Of a stretch of 64,000 bases of DNA, positions 1 to 9,269 are shown piece by piece. Source of the DNA: Brevinematales bacterium (GTDB lineage Bacteria; Spirochaetota; Brevinematia; Brevinematales; Thermospiraceae). The stretch's first letter is position 1, and every line of letters starts with the position of its first letter. The DNA is taken from contig JAOADA010000006.1 in NCBI GenBank assembly GCA_026417555.1, positions 1 through 64,000 on the forward strand, read 5' to 3'. The notes under the pieces were generated by a model that was not told the origin of the DNA, did not search any database, and saw only the letters and a program-made list of their open reading frames with translations. The position numbers and the translations under genes are program-made.

Positions 1-245
1 ATTCTATGAAACAGTCTTTTCAACAAGCTTATGGATACTCACCATACCCAATGTATGGTGAAGATTTTCAGGTGTTGCCCGGACTCCCTATCGAGTCCAA
101 ACAAAAAAATAAAAGGAGGAATTCTATGAAACAGTCTTTTCAACAAGCTTATGGATACTCACCATACCCAATGTATGGTGAAGATTTTCAGGTGTTGTCC
201 GGACTCCCTACCGAGTCTAAAAGAAATACTCTAAAGGAGGATAAT
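1..245 (+). repeat. Tandem 120-bp repeat carrying SD, start codon and N-terminal peptide
   Basis: Bases 1-98 recur at 121-218 with three mismatches (78/198, 91/211, 98/218); the first 77 bases are identical. Each unit contains an ATG (6 and 126) and encodes a near-identical 32-residue peptide rich in Gln, Tyr and Pro. Each unit ends in a strong Shine-Dalgarno (111-120 and 233-240) placed 5-6 bases before the next ATG (126 and 246). The unit is 40 codons long, so all three ATGs share one frame with no stop between. Two of the three substitutions change an amino acid (Pro/Ser, Ile/Thr). The window begins inside the array, so further copies may lie upstream. Confidence 0.93.
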
Positions 246-1415
246 ATGAAAAGAATACCCCTTTCACCCCAAAGCCAGTTCTATGCTGAACCTCAAGATT
301 CTTTCCCCTTACTCACCAAGAATACTCACTTCCCAACTGATGATGAGACCAACTTCAACGAAGAACTCCGGAAAATCCAAGAAATACTCTTTTCTTTGGA
401 AGAAGAGGAAGAAAATGATGACTTCTTCAACTCTGACCCAACCTCAAACTCTCCTTCCCATCGGAAAACAAACAAAAAACACAAACAGCTCAAGAAAAAG
501 AAAAATTGGAAGGAACTCGTAGAAAACATCAGAAAAAAGTACATCAAAAAAACAAACGAAGGGGAAGTGCTGTTTGATCCACCCTCTCCCAGAAAACCCA
601 ACCCCTCCGCAGACGAAGAGATTATCCTGGAGAGTTTTCCCCGGCTCCTCCAAAAATTCAAAAAAAATATCGCCGCAGAAAAAAAACTACAAAAATGGGG
701 TATCAAAAGACCCCATACCCACACGGACCCTAACATAACCAGAGTTATCCTCCTCCTCTACGGTCCCTCAGGTACAGGAAAGAGTCTTACAGTAGAGCTT
801 CTCGCCCAAAAAAACAATGCCGATATCCTAGAAATCAATGCCAACCATATCTTCCACCGATATATGGGAGAAAGCCCGAAAAATGCAGAAAATATTTTCA
901 ACTACTACCAGGAACTCTTTGAACTCTACCACGCCCACAACAGAAAAATCTTTTTAGTCGTCAATGAGGCTGACCAGATCTTCTCCACCCGAAGGGCCCT
1001 CATGGCAAGCGTTGACCAGGAACTTAACAGTTGCCAGAATATCTTCCTCACAAAACTTGAACATTTCAAAGGTTACTTCATCGCCACCACCAACCTTCCA
1101 GAAAACTTTGACAAAGCCTTCTGGAGACGTTTCACCCTGAAATGGGAGATCCCCTTCCCCGACGAAACAACCCGAAAAAAACTCTGGGATTACTATCTCC
1201 CCAAACCACCCTACCGGAAAAAAGAGATTAACGAAGACTTTCTGGAAAAGCTGGCAAAATACCCCCTCTCCGGAGGACAGATTGTCAATATTGTGATACA
1301 AGCTGCCTACGATGCTGTTTACGAAGATCGCCACATCTCACAAAAAGATCTCACCACCTACATCGAGGCAGAGCTCGGTGTTGTTGAAAATAAGTACACC
1401 CGAATAGGGTTTTAA
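6..1415 (+). CDS. AAA+ ATPase, Asn-type Walker B, duplicated N-terminus (copy 1)
   Basis: Single AAA+ module, role unknown. From the first ATG it has 469 residues: two copies of a Gln/Tyr/Pro-rich peptide (1-32, 41-72), a charged linker with acidic (131-138) and Lys-rich stretches, then the ATPase core. Walker A GPSGTGKS is at 253-260. The Walker B reads FLVVNEAD (NEAD 320-323), with Asn where Asp is usual. Sensor-1 ATTN is at about 360, an arginine-finger pair WRRF at 373-376, and sensor-2-like GGQIVNIV at 423-430. Translation could start at 6, 126 or 246; the last two have visible strong SD sites, and the true start may be 246 with the upstream copies as extensions. A close relative follows 10 bases downstream with its SD overlapping this stop, so the two are co-translated. 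Substrate cannot be inferred. Confidence 0.85.
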   Translation: MKQSFQQAYGYSPYPMYGEDFQVLPGLPIESKQKNKRRNSMKQSFQQAYGYSPYPMYGEDFQVLSGLPTESKRNTLKEDNMKRIPLSPQSQFYAEPQDSFPLLTKNTHFPTDDETNFNEELRKIQEILFSLEEEEENDDFFNSDPTSNSPSHRKTNKKHKQLKKKKNWKELVENIRKKYIKKTNEGEVLFDPPSPRKPNPSADEEIILESFPRLLQKFKKNIAAEKKLQKWGIKRPHTHTDPNITRVILLLYGPSGTGKSLTVELLAQKNNADILEINANHIFHRYMGESPKNAENIFNYYQELFELYHAHNRKIFLVVNEADQIFSTRRALMASVDQELNSCQNIFLTKLEHFKGYFIATTNLPENFDKAFWRRFTLKWEIPFPDETTRKKLWDYYLPKPPYRKKEINEDFLEKLAKYPLSGGQIVNIVIQAAYDAVYEDRHISQKDLTTYIEAELGVVENKYTRIGF

Positions 1416-1425
1416 GGAGGTCTTT

Positions 1426-3021
1426 ATGAATTACAAGAAAGAGCAATGGTATACCACCAACACATGGACGTCTCAAAACAGAGAAACACACCGCCACAGC
1501 ATTGAGACAAAAAAGGCTCATCACCCTGCCAAGAACAAAACCCCTCTTCTCATCAGGGCTGTAGAAAAATTTATCCTCAAACTTCTTGATAGTCCTTCCC
1601 TAACCAAGAGAATACAAGAAATTTTCTCGGTAAACCCACCTCAAAACCAACTACGAGAAGACTCCCCGCCATGGCCTACAACACCTCCCCCCTATATCCT
1701 CCTCACCCAAAATGGCTTCTCATGTGCCGACCCGAACGAACCCATACCCACCCCAGTACTGCTAGAAGAGTTTCCATCTTTCCCTTCTTCCTCGCCTCCC
1801 TCCTCCCCTACAAGACCCCTCTCAAAATATCCACATCACCCTTGCCTTGATGAAGAGGAAGAAGAAAGAAAACGACTGAAACACCTTCCTAAATATTTAT
1901 TTGAAGAAGAAGAAGAAGAAGATGAGGAGGAGGAGGAAGACATCACCATCCAAGAAAACAGAGAATACAAAGAAGAAACAAATGAAGAAGAAGAAGAGGA
2001 GGAAAAGACCCTATCGATCTCTATAAAAGCCGCTAACATCTATGCATTTTCACAGCAAAATAGCTCCACATTGTCAGAAAATACCACTCTCGGCAAGGGC
2101 GAGATACACGCCCCAAAAGTGAATTGGGATGATATTATCATCCGTAAAGACATCAAAGATGAAATCCAGAATGCCATCAATATGCAAAAACTCATCCCCA
2201 TCCTCAATGAATGGGAGATAACCCCCTCCCTCACACAAAAAAACCAAAGCGTAAAAATCCTCCTCTACGGACCATCTGGCACCGGAAAAACCTCCCTTGC
2301 AGAAGCAGCCGCAGCGTCCATCGGTGCCGATATCTACACCTTTGACGCCTCCTCCATTTACTCCTCGCTACTGGGAGCCACGGAACAAAATATAAAATCC
2401 CTCTTGAAAGACTACCATGAAAAATACAAAGAATACAAAAACCAAAACAAAGAACTCATCCTTGTCATCAATGAGGCAGACCAGATCTTCTCTCTACGAA
2501 CAACCACCATAGAACGCTCTGTCGACGTGTCATTAAACCGTATCCAAAATGTCCTTCTCGAAGAGTTTGAAAATTTTGAGGGAATCTTGATAGCCACCAC
2601 CAACCTGACCACAAACATAGATCCAGCATGGGATAGACGATTCTCTCACAAAATATTTATAAACATACCCAAAGAAGAAGAAAGAATCAAAATATGGGAA
2701 AAACACCTGCGACCAAAACTTCCCATAGATTCAGAAATTAACCGAAAAGAACTCCTTGATACCCTCGCAAAAGAAGAACTTACCGGGGGACAGATTGCCA
2801 ATATCGTTTATCGGGCAGCCATTATGGCAGCCTCCCGAGAGGGAGAAAGACAAAAAATCTTCAAGGAAGACCTTCTCCTGGCCATCGAAAAAGAACTCCA
2901 TAACATGCGCACCGCCCCCTCTTCCTTCACCTCTTCCGGTTGGGAAAAAATCCATATCAAAGGCTTCTGTCCAGACCTACCCACACCCACCATTTCACAG
3001 AAAAAAAACCACCAAAAATAA
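1426..3021 (+). CDS. AAA+ ATPase with Glu-rich tract (copy 2)
   Basis: Paralogue of the preceding ATPase, 531 residues, role unknown. Residues 1-140 are unrelated to the first gene's repeated N-terminus and include a Pro-rich stretch (about 105-135). Residues 142-193 are dominated by Glu in three runs encoded mainly by GAA/GAG repeats. The AAA core has Walker A GPSGTGKT (282-289), NEAD in place of DExD (349-352), TTN sensor-1 (391-393), RRF arginine fingers (404-406) and GGQIANIV sensor-2 (454-461). The shared Asn Walker B suggests a paralogous pair, possibly a mixed ring (inference). The SD TAAGGAGG sits on the upstream stop, and a strong hairpin terminator follows 17 bases after the gene. 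Confidence 0.87.
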   Translation: MNYKKEQWYTTNTWTSQNRETHRHSIETKKAHHPAKNKTPLLIRAVEKFILKLLDSPSLTKRIQEIFSVNPPQNQLREDSPPWPTTPPPYILLTQNGFSCADPNEPIPTPVLLEEFPSFPSSSPPSSPTRPLSKYPHHPCLDEEEEERKRLKHLPKYLFEEEEEEDEEEEEDITIQENREYKEETNEEEEEEEKTLSISIKAANIYAFSQQNSSTLSENTTLGKGEIHAPKVNWDDIIIRKDIKDEIQNAINMQKLIPILNEWEITPSLTQKNQSVKILLYGPSGTGKTSLAEAAAASIGADIYTFDASSIYSSLLGATEQNIKSLLKDYHEKYKEYKNQNKELILVINEADQIFSLRTTTIERSVDVSLNRIQNVLLEEFENFEGILIATTNLTTNIDPAWDRRFSHKIFINIPKEEERIKIWEKHLRPKLPIDSEINRKELLDTLAKEELTGGQIANIVYRAAIMAASREGERQKIFKEDLLLAIEKELHNMRTAPSSFTSSGWEKIHIKGFCPDLPTPTISQKKNHQK

Positions 3022-3033
3022 TCTTGACAACAA

Positions 3034-3066
3034 AAAAGGCTGCCCCTCACGGGGCAGCCTTTTTCC
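3034..3066. terminator. Bidirectional intrinsic terminator
   Basis: Perfect 9-bp stem GGCTGCCCC (3038-3046) and GGGGCAGCC (3051-3059) with TCAC loop. It is flanked by an A-run on the left and a T-run on the right, so it can end both the AAA operon (plus) and the mltG end of the flagellar operon (minus). Confidence 0.9.
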
Positions 3067-3128
3067 TTTAAATTTTTTCTCTCTTTTTTCAAAAAACTCT
3101 CAAGTTTTCTCCCCCTTTTTCCGATAAA

Positions 3129-3166
3129 CCCTCCGGAAGGAGGGGGGCGTGAGGGAATCCCTCACG
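3129..3166 (-). terminator. Paired hairpins after mltG
   Basis: Two short inverted repeats lie 14-50 bases after the mltG stop: CGTGAGGG/CCCTCACG (3148-3155/3159-3166) and CCCTCC/GGAGGG (3129-3134/3139-3144) with a four-base loop. Neither is followed by a good T-run on the minus strand. They may stabilise the 3' end or assist the stronger terminator at 3038-3059. Confidence 0.4.
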
Positions 3167-3179
3167 AAACTCTCTCAGG

Positions 3180-4169
3180 TTACTTCCTCATCTGATACCG
3201 TCGAACGGCTTCCGCATGCTCCTGAAGTGTCGAAGAGAAATAATGCGTTCCATCATTCTTTGAAACAAAATAAAGATAGTCCGTCTGGGCAGGATAGGCA
3301 ACAGCAAGAAGGGCACTCTTGCCGGGATTGGCAATCGGCCCGGGAGGGAGCCCATAGTACTTGTACGTGTTATAGGGCGACTCGTTGGTGAAATCTCGTT
3401 TCCGAATATTCCCATCCCATGTCCCTTCCATCTGGCGAATGTAAATCAGCGTAGGATCTGTCTGAAGCTTCATGCGTATCCGTAAACGATTATACAATAC
3501 CCCTGCCACAAGCGGCTTCTCATACTCTACACTGGTCTCCTTTTCTACAATACTCGCCAAAGTCACCGCCTCTAACAAAGAAAGCCCACGAGAACATAAG
3601 GCCTCTCTCATCTTAGGTGTTACAATATGTTTGAATTGGTTAACCATCATTTTTACAATATCATAAACTGTCATATCAAGAGAGACGCTATACGTATCCG
3701 GAAAAAGAAAACCTTCCAAGTTTTTTATCCCTTTCACCCCCAAATCAGCAACAAGATCTACTCGCCTACACGCTTCATAGAAATCCGCTTCCTGAGTGAT
3801 GAGATTCTCCTTCACCAAATACTTGGCAATATCATAAATACTCCACCCCTCCAAAATTGTCACACGACGGGCATACACCCGCCCACTCACCATTTTTTGG
3901 ATGAGATCATCAAGAGATTCCCCAGGCATAATCTGATATGTCCCCGCCTGAAGTTTTTTGTCATACCCACGGATCTTCGCCCTTACCTTGAAACGAACCG
4001 AATCTCGAATAATACGGTTCTGAGCTAGACGACTGGCAATCCGGTTGAGACTCTCTCCTTTCTCTACCTCAAAAAGTACTGGTTCCTTGTTGAGCGTTAC
4101 ATCCCGAGCACACCCCACTATTCCTGCACATACCACCCCAAAAACACACCATAATACAACCTTCTTCAT
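3180..4169 (-). CDS. mltG: Endolytic murein transglycosylase MltG (YceG family)
   Basis: Cleaves nascent peptidoglycan glycan strands near the membrane and so helps terminate them. The 329-residue product has an N-terminal hydrophobic segment (4-19) ending in IVGC (Cys20), so it may be a lipoprotein rather than the usual single-pass protein. A LysM-like region follows at about 30-82, then the YceG domain with LEGFLFPDTY (151-160) and the catalytic glutamate in ASIVEKET (Glu209). The start at 4169 is chosen because a GGAGG lies just upstream and its ATG overlaps the rlmB stop (ATGA); a longer reading from 4205 lacks this. It is the last gene of the flagellar run and ends before the shared terminator. 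Confidence 0.93.
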   Translation of the reverse strand: MKKVVLWCVFGVVCAGIVGCARDVTLNKEPVLFEVEKGESLNRIASRLAQNRIIRDSVRFKVRAKIRGYDKKLQAGTYQIMPGESLDDLIQKMVSGRVYARRVTILEGWSIYDIAKYLVKENLITQEADFYEACRRVDLVADLGVKGIKNLEGFLFPDTYSVSLDMTVYDIVKMMVNQFKHIVTPKMREALCSRGLSLLEAVTLASIVEKETSVEYEKPLVAGVLYNRLRIRMKLQTDPTLIYIRQMEGTWDGNIRKRDFTNESPYNTYKYYGLPPGPIANPGKSALLAVAYPAQTDYLYFVSKNDGTHYFSSTLQEHAEAVRRYQMRK

Positions 4170-4894
4170 CGCTGTCCTCCAGAGAGTTGTGTATACACTT
4201 CCCATAAACAGATGGCTGTCGCTACCGAAACATTCAAACTGTCAAGCTTCTCCGTTGTCGGAATACGAATCATTCCATCACATGCCTTGCGCATCATACG
4301 ACGTATACCTTTATCCTCTGAACCTACCACAAGACACAAAGGCTTCGTAAACGTGATAGCCCCTAACACCCTATCCCCACGCATATCTAGCCCATACACA
4401 CAAAACCCCCTCTGCTTCAGCCTTTCCGTCGTCCTTACAATATTTCGTACATACACCACCGCAAGATGATATAACGCCCCAGCAGAAGCCCGGATCACCT
4501 GCGGCGTAATCCGTGCACTATGATCCTCAGGCAAAACCACAACATCCACCCCCAACAAAAGAGCCGAACGAAGTATCGCCCCAACATTTCCCGTATCCGT
4601 GAGACCATCCAACATGAGAATTACCTTTGCCTCTTCCCAGCCAGAAAACTCATCCTCATCCTCATATACCGTCGGAGGAAGATCTATCTCCGCTACAATC
4701 CCTTGATGTTTCTGAGTCCCCGCAAGCCGACTCATGTCCTTCGCCGAAAGATACTCTACTCCTACCCCTTCTCGCTGGAGCCGAACGACAAGAGAAGCAA
4801 ATTTCGCCTTCTTGGAAAACTCTACTACTACCCGCCGAAGCCCTACGCGTTCTCGAAGAGCTTCCTCAACAGAATTCCTGCCGTAAACAAACAC
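4166..4894 (-). CDS. rlmB: 23S rRNA 2'-O-ribose methyltransferase, SpoU/TrmH family (RlmB-like)
   Basis: SPOUT-class methyltransferase that uses SAM to methylate a ribose in 23S rRNA (G2251 for E. coli RlmB). It has 242 residues: an N-terminal substrate-binding domain (about 1-75) and the SpoU domain with NVGAILRSA (103-111), GSEDKGI (191-197) and LNVSVA (220-225), which form the trefoil knot and cofactor pocket. The start is GTG at 4894, 15 bases after the flhG stop. The family contains several rRNA/tRNA specificities, so the exact target is inferred from overall similarity to RlmB. Confidence 0.88.
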   Translation of the reverse strand: MFVYGRNSVEEALRERVGLRRVVVEFSKKAKFASLVVRLQREGVGVEYLSAKDMSRLAGTQKHQGIVAEIDLPPTVYEDEDEFSGWEEAKVILMLDGLTDTGNVGAILRSALLLGVDVVVLPEDHSARITPQVIRASAGALYHLAVVYVRNIVRTTERLKQRGFCVYGLDMRGDRVLGAITFTKPLCLVVGSEDKGIRRMMRKACDGMIRIPTTEKLDSLNVSVATAICLWEVYTQLSGGQR

Positions 4895-4908
4895 ACGTAC
4901 CCCTCACC

Positions 4909-5802
4909 TCAGGCAGGCATGCGCTTGAAAAACGCATTGAGAAACTTAAACCACCCCTTGTCCTCATCAGAAACCTGAAGATTGAGAAGCCGTTTGGCAA
5001 TGTGGTTGAGACAAAGATTCACGGGAGCATTCGGAGCAAGAAAAGCAAACGGTATCTGCTTCTTCACCGCTGCCGCTACCACAGGATCCTCAAAAACAAA
5101 CCCCAGACTCTCCACCTTCACATTCAAAAACTGCCCACAAATCTGAATAATCCGCTGAGACACCTTGTTCGCCTCCGCCGGAGAAGAAACCCGATTCATA
5201 AGAAGTTTTATATTCGCATTGTCCGTCTCAGCTACAATCGCCTTGATCACCCCATACGCATCCGTAATCGACGTAGGTTCAGGCGTAGCCACAACAATAA
5301 TCTCATGCGCCGCCAAAAGAAAACTGATCACATTACTCGAAATGCCTGCCGACGTATCAATGATAATATAATCCGCATAACTGATCTCACGAATGGCTTG
5401 AATGAGATTTTGCTTCTCCTCATCCTTGAGATTAGCAAGCTGCGAGAAACCATTGGCCCCAGCAATAATATCAAGCCCATACTCCGTCTTGTAAATGATC
5501 TCAGAAATCTTCTTTTGCCCTTTGATCACATGCATGAGATTGTACTTGGGAATAATCCCCATCAAAACATTGATATTGGCAAGCCCAAGATCCGCATCCA
5601 TTACTATGACCTTTTTGGGAGATTCTTTCATCCTTGCCAGATGAATCCCTAGATTGAGTGAGATACTACTCTTCCCCACTCCTCCCTTCCCCGACGTGAT
5701 CGCAATAATCTTTGTATCATGATTGCTAAAAGTCCCCATCATCCGACGAAGACCTTCAGCTTGATCTGGTCCCAAAATCCCTTTTTCCATTGTCGTTGAC
5801 AT
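4909..5802 (-). CDS. flhG: FlhG (YlxH/FleN), MinD-like ATPase controlling flagellar number
   Basis: ParA/MinD-type ATPase that partners FlhF to set number and site of flagella. The 297-residue product begins with DQAEGLRR (13-20), the N-terminal motif that in FlhG proteins stimulates FlhF GTPase activity. A deviant Walker A, SGKGGVGKSS (37-46), follows, then VIVMDADLGLANIN and the IIIDTSAGIS switch region near 148. It lies directly after flhF, as in most flagellated bacteria. The C-terminal part should hold the amphipathic membrane-targeting helix; this was not verified. Confidence 0.95.
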   Translation of the reverse strand: MSTTMEKGILGPDQAEGLRRMMGTFSNHDTKIIAITSGKGGVGKSSISLNLGIHLARMKESPKKVIVMDADLGLANINVLMGIIPKYNLMHVIKGQKKISEIIYKTEYGLDIIAGANGFSQLANLKDEEKQNLIQAIREISYADYIIIDTSAGISSNVISFLLAAHEIIVVATPEPTSITDAYGVIKAIVAETDNANIKLLMNRVSSPAEANKVSQRIIQICGQFLNVKVESLGFVFEDPVVAAAVKKQIPFAFLAPNAPVNLCLNHIAKRLLNLQVSDEDKGWFKFLNAFFKRMPA

Positions 5803-5820
5803 AACCGTCCCTCTCCTCTC

Positions 5821-7137
5821 TTATTTCAATGCTTGATTCACCAAGTTTTCAAGATTCGCTATCTCAAAATCCTGCGGAACCTCCTGCCCATTGGTGATAA
5901 ACGAAAGCGGAAGCTGATACCTATACAACATGGAAAGAAGCGAACCATAACACACCGTCTCATCCAACTTGGTGGCTAACACATGCCTAAAACGAAGACA
6001 TGAATAATTCTCCACAATAAAAGCAAGATCCCGTGGCTTGGTGGTCGCCGAAACAACAAGATGAATATCAAAAGGTACATCACATTGATCTAACCACTCC
6101 GAAAGCTCCTTCAACGGAATCGTATCCCGAGGACTCTTCCCCGCTGTATCAATAAACGTAAAATACTCATCCCCAGATTGTTTCATGAGTTTGAAAAAGT
6201 CATCCCTCGTCTTGATCTCATAAAACGGAGAACGAAGAATCTCCGCATACTTCGCAAGCTGCGGATCCGCCCCTACCTTATAACGATCTATAGAGATAAA
6301 CCGCATCTTCTTCTGCCGCATCGCCGCAAGATGTGCTGCAAGCTTCACAAGCGTGACGGTTTTCCCAACCCCCGTTGGACCCACAAAGAGAATATTCCTC
6401 CCATACGGATAATTCTCTAAAGAAATAGGCTGACTCTTGAGCCGAGAAAGAAAAAACTGCTTCACTTCAAGAAGAACCTGATTCTTGTCAATAAGAACAT
6501 TCGTCTTGAGAGTTTTGAGATACTCAAGCACATCTTCAATCACCTTGGCATCAAAATCCCTCTCCGCAAGAAAATCTTCCATCCAAAGAAGATGATTTTT
6601 GGCTATCTCCGCATCCCGAACAATCTCATTCTCTTTCTCATACTCCTCACTGAGATGGTGACTCATCAAACCTTCACGAATACACGAAAGCTCTTGCTTG
6701 ATGAAATTCTGAAGAGAAGAAATCTCCATCTCAAGCTTGCTCACCTTGCTGACAAGTTCATTGTCAACAGGAGCAGACGAAGAAGCAATATTTTTCATCA
6801 CCGTGGCCGATTTTTCCGCTATAACCTGAAGGGCTTGCTCCTTGATAGGAGTCTTTGAAATATTCACTCCACTGGGCTCCGGAGAGGAAGACGAAGACTG
6901 GGAAAAGAGGGGCATCTCATCACGAGAGGTAACAACCGGACGACGAGAGGATTTGGTTTGAATAGAAGCTACCGCCACCCACACCACATCCTTCTTGAGA
7001 CCAAACCACCGCTTCACCTCCTTGCTTGTCACACGCAAAAGCTGGGTCTCGTTGAGACGATTTTCACGGATGGCCTCTGCAAACATCCTGTCAATAGCCT
7101 CTTTGCGTGTCCGCCCTTCATAATTGCGATATTCCAT
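5821..7137 (-). CDS. flhF: FlhF, SRP-type GTPase for flagellar placement
   Basis: SRP54/FtsY-related GTPase that recruits early flagellar parts to the assembly site. From ATG 7137 it has 438 residues: a variable basic B domain (1 to about 180), an N domain, and the G domain with GPTGVGKT (253-260), DTAGKS (330-335) and TKLDE (389-393). The start at 7137 has SD GGGAGGG; the upstream ATG at 7155 has none and would overlap it. The gene follows flhA by 57 bases, and that gap holds its own promoter, so FlhF/FlhG can be made independently of the export apparatus. Confidence 0.95.
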   Translation of the reverse strand: MEYRNYEGRTRKEAIDRMFAEAIRENRLNETQLLRVTSKEVKRWFGLKKDVVWVAVASIQTKSSRRPVVTSRDEMPLFSQSSSSSPEPSGVNISKTPIKEQALQVIAEKSATVMKNIASSSAPVDNELVSKVSKLEMEISSLQNFIKQELSCIREGLMSHHLSEEYEKENEIVRDAEIAKNHLLWMEDFLAERDFDAKVIEDVLEYLKTLKTNVLIDKNQVLLEVKQFFLSRLKSQPISLENYPYGRNILFVGPTGVGKTVTLVKLAAHLAAMRQKKMRFISIDRYKVGADPQLAKYAEILRSPFYEIKTRDDFFKLMKQSGDEYFTFIDTAGKSPRDTIPLKELSEWLDQCDVPFDIHLVVSATTKPRDLAFIVENYSCLRFRHVLATKLDETVCYGSLLSMLYRYQLPLSFITNGQEVPQDFEIANLENLVNQALK

Positions 7138-7163
7138 GTCACCCTCCCTTCTCACTCTTTACT

Positions 7164-7192
7164 ATTATATCACAGTTCTGTTATTTATGCAA
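7164..7192 (-). promoter_or_regulatory. Internal promoter before flhF
   Basis: Minus-strand -35 TTGCAT (7187-7192) and perfect -10 TATAAT (7164-7169) with a 17-bp spacer lie between the flhA stop and flhF, about 27 bases before the flhF ATG. Confidence 0.75.
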
Positions 7193-7193
7193 C

Positions 7194-9269
7194 TCATGAC
7201 ACTACCCGCGGAGAACTTATCATCCCTATCTGATCTACAGAAACATCAATGGGAACCTCCGAGTAGGACAACACTCCCACCGAGGGAAACATCCGCTCTA
7301 TCATCTCTCGCACCAACCGACGAACCCGCTGAGAACAGAGAATCACAGGAGAATACCCATTTTGAAGAGCATTCTCAATGATCCGAGAAGCCTCATTGAC
7401 AAAATGGTTCATAATCTCTGGATCAAGATTAGCATAGGTTGCATTCTGCTGCTCATAAATGGAATCCTGAAGCACCTCCTCCAATTCGGGATCGATCATC
7501 ACAGCTTTGAGCGTGTTCTTCTCGTCAACATAGTTCCCTACAATCTGTTTGCCAAGAGCCTGTCGAACATACTCCACAAGAGTATCTACATTCTTGGTCG
7601 TCGCCCCATAATCCGAAAGCGTCTCCAAAATAGTTACCATATTCCGAATCCTCACCCCCTCTCGAAGAAGCCCTTGTAATACCTTCTGAATGTCCCCAAC
7701 ACTCATATGCTTGAGAGCTTCTTCCACAACAACAGGATACTCCTTACGAATGGCATCCAACATCGCCTGAGTATCTTGACGGGTGAGAAGAGTAGCCGCA
7801 TTGCGCTTGATAACCTCCGTAAGATGCGTCGCTATCACCGCTGGAGCATCATACACAGAAAACCCCATAGACTCCGCCTTGACCCGCTCCTCAGCAGAAA
7901 TCCACTTGGCAGGAAGCCCAAAAGCTGGTTCCTTCACACTGATCCCATCAATAGCATCAAGATCAAGCCGCGCATTCATGGCAAGAAACTTGCTGGGATA
8001 TACCTTGCCACGAGCCACATCTATCCCCCGAATCTTGATCACATATTCCGACGCATCTAAAGCCACATTGTCCACAATACGAATAGGAGGCACCAAAACC
8101 CCAAGATCAAGACCAATCCGTTTACGAATCATACGAATCCTATCCAAAAGATCACCCCCTTGCTGTTTGTCCACAAGGGGAATAAGATTGTACCCTATCT
8201 CAAGATTCATAGGATCTACCTTGACAATATCTTCGACAGTGGTAGTCTGCTCTGCCGCTTGTTTGCTTTTTGTCTCCTGCTGCTTCTTCACCTCTTCCTT
8301 TGTCTGTGCCGATTGCATCATATATCCTAAAGCCACAAGCCCACCCCCCATCACCATCATAATCAGCGTGGGAAACCCAGGAAGAAATGCCATCACCCCA
8401 AGCACCCCTCCGGTAATGTACAAAATAGAAGAGGTTGAGGCAATCTGCTTCACCACATTCCGCCCAAAACGCTCCTGAGAAGCCGACCTCGTCACAATAA
8501 TACCTGTCGCTGTCGAAATCAAAAGGGCTGGAATCTGAGAAACAAGACCATCACCAATCGTGAGAAGAGTATAAGTTTGCGCCGCCGTCGCTATATCTTC
8601 CCCACGAACAATCGTCCCAATCACTATCCCCATAATGATATCCACCAACGTAATAACAAGGGCAACTTTCACATTCCCAGAAACAAACTTGGACGAACCA
8701 TCCATAGCCCCATAAAAATCAGCCTCCTGCCGCACCTCCTCCCGACGCTTCCTGGCCTCTTCCTCCGTGATAAGCCCTGCATTCAGATCACTGTCTATAG
8801 AAAGTTGTTTCGCTGGCATCGCATCAAGAGTAAATCTCGCTGCCACTTCCGATACACGACTCGCTCCTTTGGTGATCACCAAAAACTGAATAGCCAACAG
8901 CACAATAAAAATGGTAATCCCAATCCAATAATTTCCCCCTACCACAAACTCCCCAAACGCCCGAATAATTTTTCCCTCAAATGCCACCCCTTGACTCAAA
9001 ATCAAACGAGTGGAAGACACATTCAAACCTAACCCAAAAATCGTCGTCAGAAGAATAAGCGTCGGAAAAGTATGGAAATCAGCAGGTTTTCTGATAGAAA
9101 GCGTACTCAGAATAATCATCAAGCTAATCGCAAGATTCAACGCAAGCATCATATCAAGAATCCACGCCGGCAAAGGAATCACCATCATAAGCACAATCAC
9201 TACCACAGCAATTGCCATGGGAAATTCATCCAGAAGCGAAAAAAGAAGATTCTGCCTCTCGTTTGCCAT
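7194..9269 (-). CDS. flhA: FlhA, flagellar type III export gate
   Basis: Nonameric inner-membrane export gate that uses proton motive force and docks export chaperones. The 691 residues match family length. The N-terminal half has about eight membrane helices starting at residue 16 and the FHIPEP-region signature, with conserved RKPADFHTFPT at about 60-70. The large cytoplasmic domain begins near 330. The SD AAGGAGG precedes ATG 9269. It lies 9 bases after flhB in the export operon. Confidence 0.97.
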   Translation of the reverse strand: MANERQNLLFSLLDEFPMAIAVVVIVLMMVIPLPAWILDMMLALNLAISLMIILSTLSIRKPADFHTFPTLILLTTIFGLGLNVSSTRLILSQGVAFEGKIIRAFGEFVVGGNYWIGITIFIVLLAIQFLVITKGASRVSEVAARFTLDAMPAKQLSIDSDLNAGLITEEEARKRREEVRQEADFYGAMDGSSKFVSGNVKVALVITLVDIIMGIVIGTIVRGEDIATAAQTYTLLTIGDGLVSQIPALLISTATGIIVTRSASQERFGRNVVKQIASTSSILYITGGVLGVMAFLPGFPTLIMMVMGGGLVALGYMMQSAQTKEEVKKQQETKSKQAAEQTTTVEDIVKVDPMNLEIGYNLIPLVDKQQGGDLLDRIRMIRKRIGLDLGVLVPPIRIVDNVALDASEYVIKIRGIDVARGKVYPSKFLAMNARLDLDAIDGISVKEPAFGLPAKWISAEERVKAESMGFSVYDAPAVIATHLTEVIKRNAATLLTRQDTQAMLDAIRKEYPVVVEEALKHMSVGDIQKVLQGLLREGVRIRNMVTILETLSDYGATTKNVDTLVEYVRQALGKQIVGNYVDEKNTLKAVMIDPELEEVLQDSIYEQQNATYANLDPEIMNHFVNEASRIIENALQNGYSPVILCSQRVRRLVREMIERMFPSVGVLSYSEVPIDVSVDQIGMISSPRVVS

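Follow-up and report, generated by a model that had tools for sequence, protein, structure and literature searches.

A locally repeated candidate structured mRNA leader upstream of an AAA+ ATPase pair in a spirochaete

The window comprises bases 1 to 64000 of contig C30, from a genome of 2.04 Mb in 33 contigs. Starting at the left edge of the contig, the plus strand carries two 120-bp units (termed c and d) arranged in tandem, and then continues directly as the gene for an AAA+ ATPase (AAA1). This is followed by a second AAA+ ATPase gene (AAA2), after which a terminator-like hairpin closes the operon. The positions of all these features are collected in Table 1. The GC skew of the plus strand is strongly negative over window positions 1–9000, where the two ATPase genes run counter to the predominant direction of transcription. 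Within the repeat units the skew is weaker (–0.05) than in the flanking DNA.

Table 1. Location of the features discussed in the text; positions refer to the window unless another locus is named
Feature	Position	Strand	Remark
Unit c, first 120-bp unit	1..120	+	truncated by contig edge; own SD outside
ATG of unit c	6..8	+	in frame with ATPase
Hairpin P1 of unit c	39..61	+	
Hairpin P2 of unit c	81..98	+	
SD AGGAGG serving unit d ATG	114..119	+	
Unit d, second 120-bp unit	121..240	+	
ATG of unit d	126..128	+	
Hairpin P1 of unit d	159..181	+	
Hairpin P2 of unit d	201..218	+	closing pair G-U
SD AGGAGG serving ATPase start	235..240	+	
AAA1, AAA+ ATPase, 389 aa	246..1415	+	third in-frame start at 246
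AAA2, second AAA+ ATPase, 531 aa	1426..3021	+	no element before gene
Terminator-like hairpin closing operon	3033..3064	+	
~700-aa AAA+ paralogue	L020 3433-5541; L021 4310-6436; L016 223-2316		

Units c and d are identical at 107 of 120 positions overall and at 95 of 98 across the first 98 bases, an identity that excludes chance duplication. The same array was called by TRF with a period of 120 and 97% matches, confirming the duplication given in the preliminary description of this DNA. The ATGs at positions 6, 126 and 246 share with the ATPase a single frame of 470 codons that is open to the left edge; the third in-frame start is real, and corresponds to ATG 246. By itself the open frame carries little weight, since 40 random codons would remain open with a probability of 0.155 at this composition. 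Each unit had been described as having both an SD and an ATG. Both ATGs are present, but only two SDs are visible; the window begins at base 1 of the contig, and thus the SD of unit c can only be inferred. The array had also been proposed to continue leftwards, which fits the additional copies described below, but the contig break prevents the units from being counted.

Two strong hairpins in the module were absent from the preliminary description. The core common to the copies is 69 nt in length, and comprises the hairpin P1, a linker of 19 nt and the hairpin P2, beyond which an A-rich segment leads to the SD-ATG. In unit c P1 (TCACCATAC-5-GTATGGTGA) is a perfect stem of 9 bp and P2 (GGACTC-6-GAGTCC) a perfect stem of 6 bp. 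Both hairpins are intact in all the full copies, where they are located just before an SD. A start-like SD-NNN-AAA precedes each copy, with ATC in place of ATG in one of them. The stems remain perfect despite a divergence of ~11–12% between copies. Of nine variable columns in the core eight are unpaired, while in the ninth C is replaced by U, with the pair preserved as G-U. No pair is altered on both sides among the copies of this genome, and taken alone the conservation of the stems is marginal (Fisher p = 0.067). The folding z-scores are –3.95 for unit c, –2.50 for unit d and –3.45 for the full copy on contig C28.

A search of the genome itself revealed two further copies of the core, both on contig C28. 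The third copy (C28:614-718(-)) is 89% identical, and the fourth (C28:1-33(-)) is cut by the end of that contig. There are thus four copies on C30 and C28, with none elsewhere in the genome. Both C28 copies are oriented towards the end of the contig, as a continuation of C28(-) into C30 would predict, from which we infer that the two contigs join and that all the copies lie at one locus. The genes flanking the junction are 0.2 Mb apart in the complete genome of a relative in the genus (G001) and on different contigs in Brevinematales bacterium Ch60, so that synteny in these genomes is uninformative on this point. An orphan ORF (MNTF...) of ~190 codons with its own SD lies between the two C28 copies (L004 14-583 (-)). 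Its chance of staying open is 0.012, its second codon positions are T-rich (hydrophobic), and no family match was found for it.

The element appears to be restricted to this locus. No Rfam family scored above its gathering threshold at positions 1–300, the best sub-threshold match being osmY (15.4 against 46.9 bits). A covariance model of the element (R1) gave no match above chance outside the locus in 393 genomes of the phylum, where E values of 0.004–0.044 per genome correspond to the chance level. Nothing specific to the element was found in the literature.

The ATPase pair is present in two of the 13 genomes of the order, this one and Ch60; the other ATPase matches in the order are a paralogue of 680–710 aa, and G001 is without the locus. 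Between this genome and Ch60 AAA1 is 42% and AAA2 41% identical, compared with 98% for FlhG and 78% for the paralogous ATPase, so that the pair is either fast-evolving or exchanged. Accessory or defence genes are often of this kind, and the pair is possibly a defence or accessory system. The best match of AAA1 and AAA2 in a defence library is IetA (PADLOC/NCBIfam IteA; E = 1.1e-23 and 7.9e-32), at scores of 76 and 97 bits against an NCBIfam equivalog cut-off of 510. Inspection of the neighbouring ORFs by eye revealed no subtilisin-like protease of the IetS type, and an mltG-like gene comes next downstream. The N-terminus of AAA1 is disordered-looking and fast-evolving. Both AAA1 and AAA2 have a low-complexity, acidic N-terminal part (window 246-3021; L019 8049-10782). 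The larger AAA+ paralogue (~700 aa) is conserved in all three genus genomes with the same second gene downstream of it, and is without the hairpin leader.

In Ch60 a single leader precedes the orthologous ATPase. Starting from an SD-ATG it forms an ORF of 22 codons, the hairpin CCAACCCT-12-AGGGTTGG, a second hairpin GGACC-CACG-GGTCC and then the SD-ATG of the gene. The ORF terminates inside the first hairpin, and is out of frame with the ATPase. The sequence is unrelated to that of the leaders in this genome, yet the P1-P2-SD layout is alike, and in both genomes the hairpins are located directly upstream of the SD of the orthologous genes. The leaders cannot be aligned base by base, since MAFFT does not bring their hairpins into register, and R1 does not recover the Ch60 leader. 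Its folding energy is ordinary (z from –0.06 to –2.0). The 95 nt before SD-ATG sites were scanned for the two-hairpin layout, with settings chosen after seeing both leaders. In the main loci four sites out of 78 had the layout; at the strictest setting it was found at four of 151 unique sites in all the loci examined, these being unit c, unit d, the C28 copy and Ch60. Random stretches gave 4/3000, and the shuffled Ch60 leader reached the layout in 6 to 36 of 2000 cases depending on settings; as the layout was defined post hoc, the true significance is lower than these frequencies suggest.

The copies, their intact hairpins, their position and the like layout at the Ch60 orthologue are direct observations. 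The reading that we tentatively prefer, with a confidence a little short of even, is that they constitute a locally amplified structured mRNA leader tuning translation of an accessory AAA+ operon, a candidate for which no function is proven. The element would consist of P1, the 19-nt linker, P2 and the SD-ATG, with a short translated start ahead in most copies, and at least three local duplications would have multiplied it ahead of the AAA+ pair. It would be transcribed as RNA and would influence, in cis, how the ORF that follows is translated. Ribosomes on the short leader ORF may be coupled to the following SD, or a regulator may be bound, and leader translation may serve as the sensor. ATG 246 would be the main ATPase start, with the upstream ATGs mostly feeding leader translation. 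Sequestration of the SD was considered, but the accessibility of the SD is no different from that in other genes. Coupling or a bound regulator is thus likelier than a simple on/off mask.

It is possible, although unlikely, that the array is neutral, slippage or recombination having copied the operon's 5′ region, with nothing functional beyond the last SD-ATG and copies freely lost and gained. The marginal conservation of the stems, the degenerate start of one copy, the single leader of Ch60 and the absence of the locus from G001 would all fit such a history. A weak colinear DNA match between unit d and ATPase codons ~278–391, which includes AAGAAATACTCT, would likewise fit repeated duplication of gene-start DNA. 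A match as good occurs in one of 2179 control stretches under one scoring and in 13 and 122 under two others, so that this similarity is suggestive and dependent on scoring. At the protein level the peptide aligned with the ATPase N-terminus no better than shuffles did, and the idea that it is a copy of this part was rejected. AAGAAATACTCT lies near the end of unit d, at window positions 221-232, and recurs at 379-390 in the ATPase coding sequence. Against neutrality stand stems kept perfect over the divergence of the copies, and the equal hairpin layout of the Ch60 leader.

The preliminary description had proposed that ATGs 6, 126 and 246 are all used, generating isoforms with two, one or no copies of a Tyr/Pro/Gln-rich peptide. 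The exact 40-codon period, the open frame and the SDs at two of the three starts are consistent with this, and the codon score of the units is +0.17 in the ATPase frame, while the remaining two forward frames give –0.17 and –0.23. The ATG of the C28 copy is moreover in frame with a downstream ORF of 239 codons (the orphan ORF). Taking the codon score together with this start, N-terminally extended ATPase products are possible. However, the C28 SD-ATG reads the module as GTHHTQRMVKIF where the C30 units read YSPYPMYGEDF, and in the C28 copy the latter frame is without a start and ends in a stop. The copies thus differ in their frame relative to the upstream ATG, and it is not the peptide that has been conserved. 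Nor was purifying selection on the peptide observed: units c and d differ by one synonymous and eight nonsynonymous codon changes, unit d and the C28 copy by one and three respectively. Searches for homologues of the peptide returned only the local copies; a weak match in Ch60 (E = 0.2) was rejected as lying antisense inside another gene. The Ch60 leader ORF, which stops in P1 out of frame with the ATPase, also speaks against the proposal. The in-frame starts and the codon score stand, while the use of all three ATGs as nested starts is improbable.

A role at the DNA level, with the palindromes acting as a protein-binding or recombination site or as remnants of a small mobile element rather than as an RNA signal, is hardly probable, for while the palindromic arms, the repeats at contig ends and the accessory gene neighbourhood (the ATPase pair being missing from most of the order) might suggest it, the element is not dispersed in the genome, has no match in phages, plasmids or viral contigs, and has a constant orientation directly before an SD-ATG.

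A stronger form of the preferred reading, that of a structured leader, would make copy number itself the control. A series of [start - hairpins - SD] modules, forming a lineage-specific leader, would then set both the output and the N-terminal length of this rapidly evolving, defence-like ATPase, and the array would expand and contract between strains; we regard this as very improbable. Confirmation of the leader would add an RNA absent from the catalogues and associated with two accessory ATPase genes, in an order of spirochaetes that has been little studied. It would also provide an example of tandem amplification of an entire translation-start module, through which expression could be tuned by copy number. 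If instead the array is neutral, it carries the caution that in-frame tandem SD-ATGs can mimic an isoform design when the frame is unconserved.

Three known systems may be compared with the locus. IetA, an anti-phage AAA+ ATPase, is the best defence-library match of AAA1 and AAA2, which differ from it in falling far below its cut-off and in the mltG-like next gene, and no protease partner was seen among the adjacent genes. N-terminal isoforms that arise from internal in-frame starts are known in bacteria, and the array resembles such cases in that one ORF is preceded by several SD-ATGs sharing a frame; it differs in that neither the third copy nor Ch60 retains the frame and the peptide. The third comparison is with structured 5′ leaders of bacterial mRNAs, either riboswitch-like or coupling translation. 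In contrast to these, the element is without an Rfam match, a known ligand or a signal of SD sequestration in its folding, and occurs in several tandem copies at one locus. It shares with them hairpins directly before the SD, a short leader ORF, and a single gene or operon in cis, and is best regarded as a new candidate of this known kind, a structured mRNA leader specific to the lineage and unusual in its local amplification.
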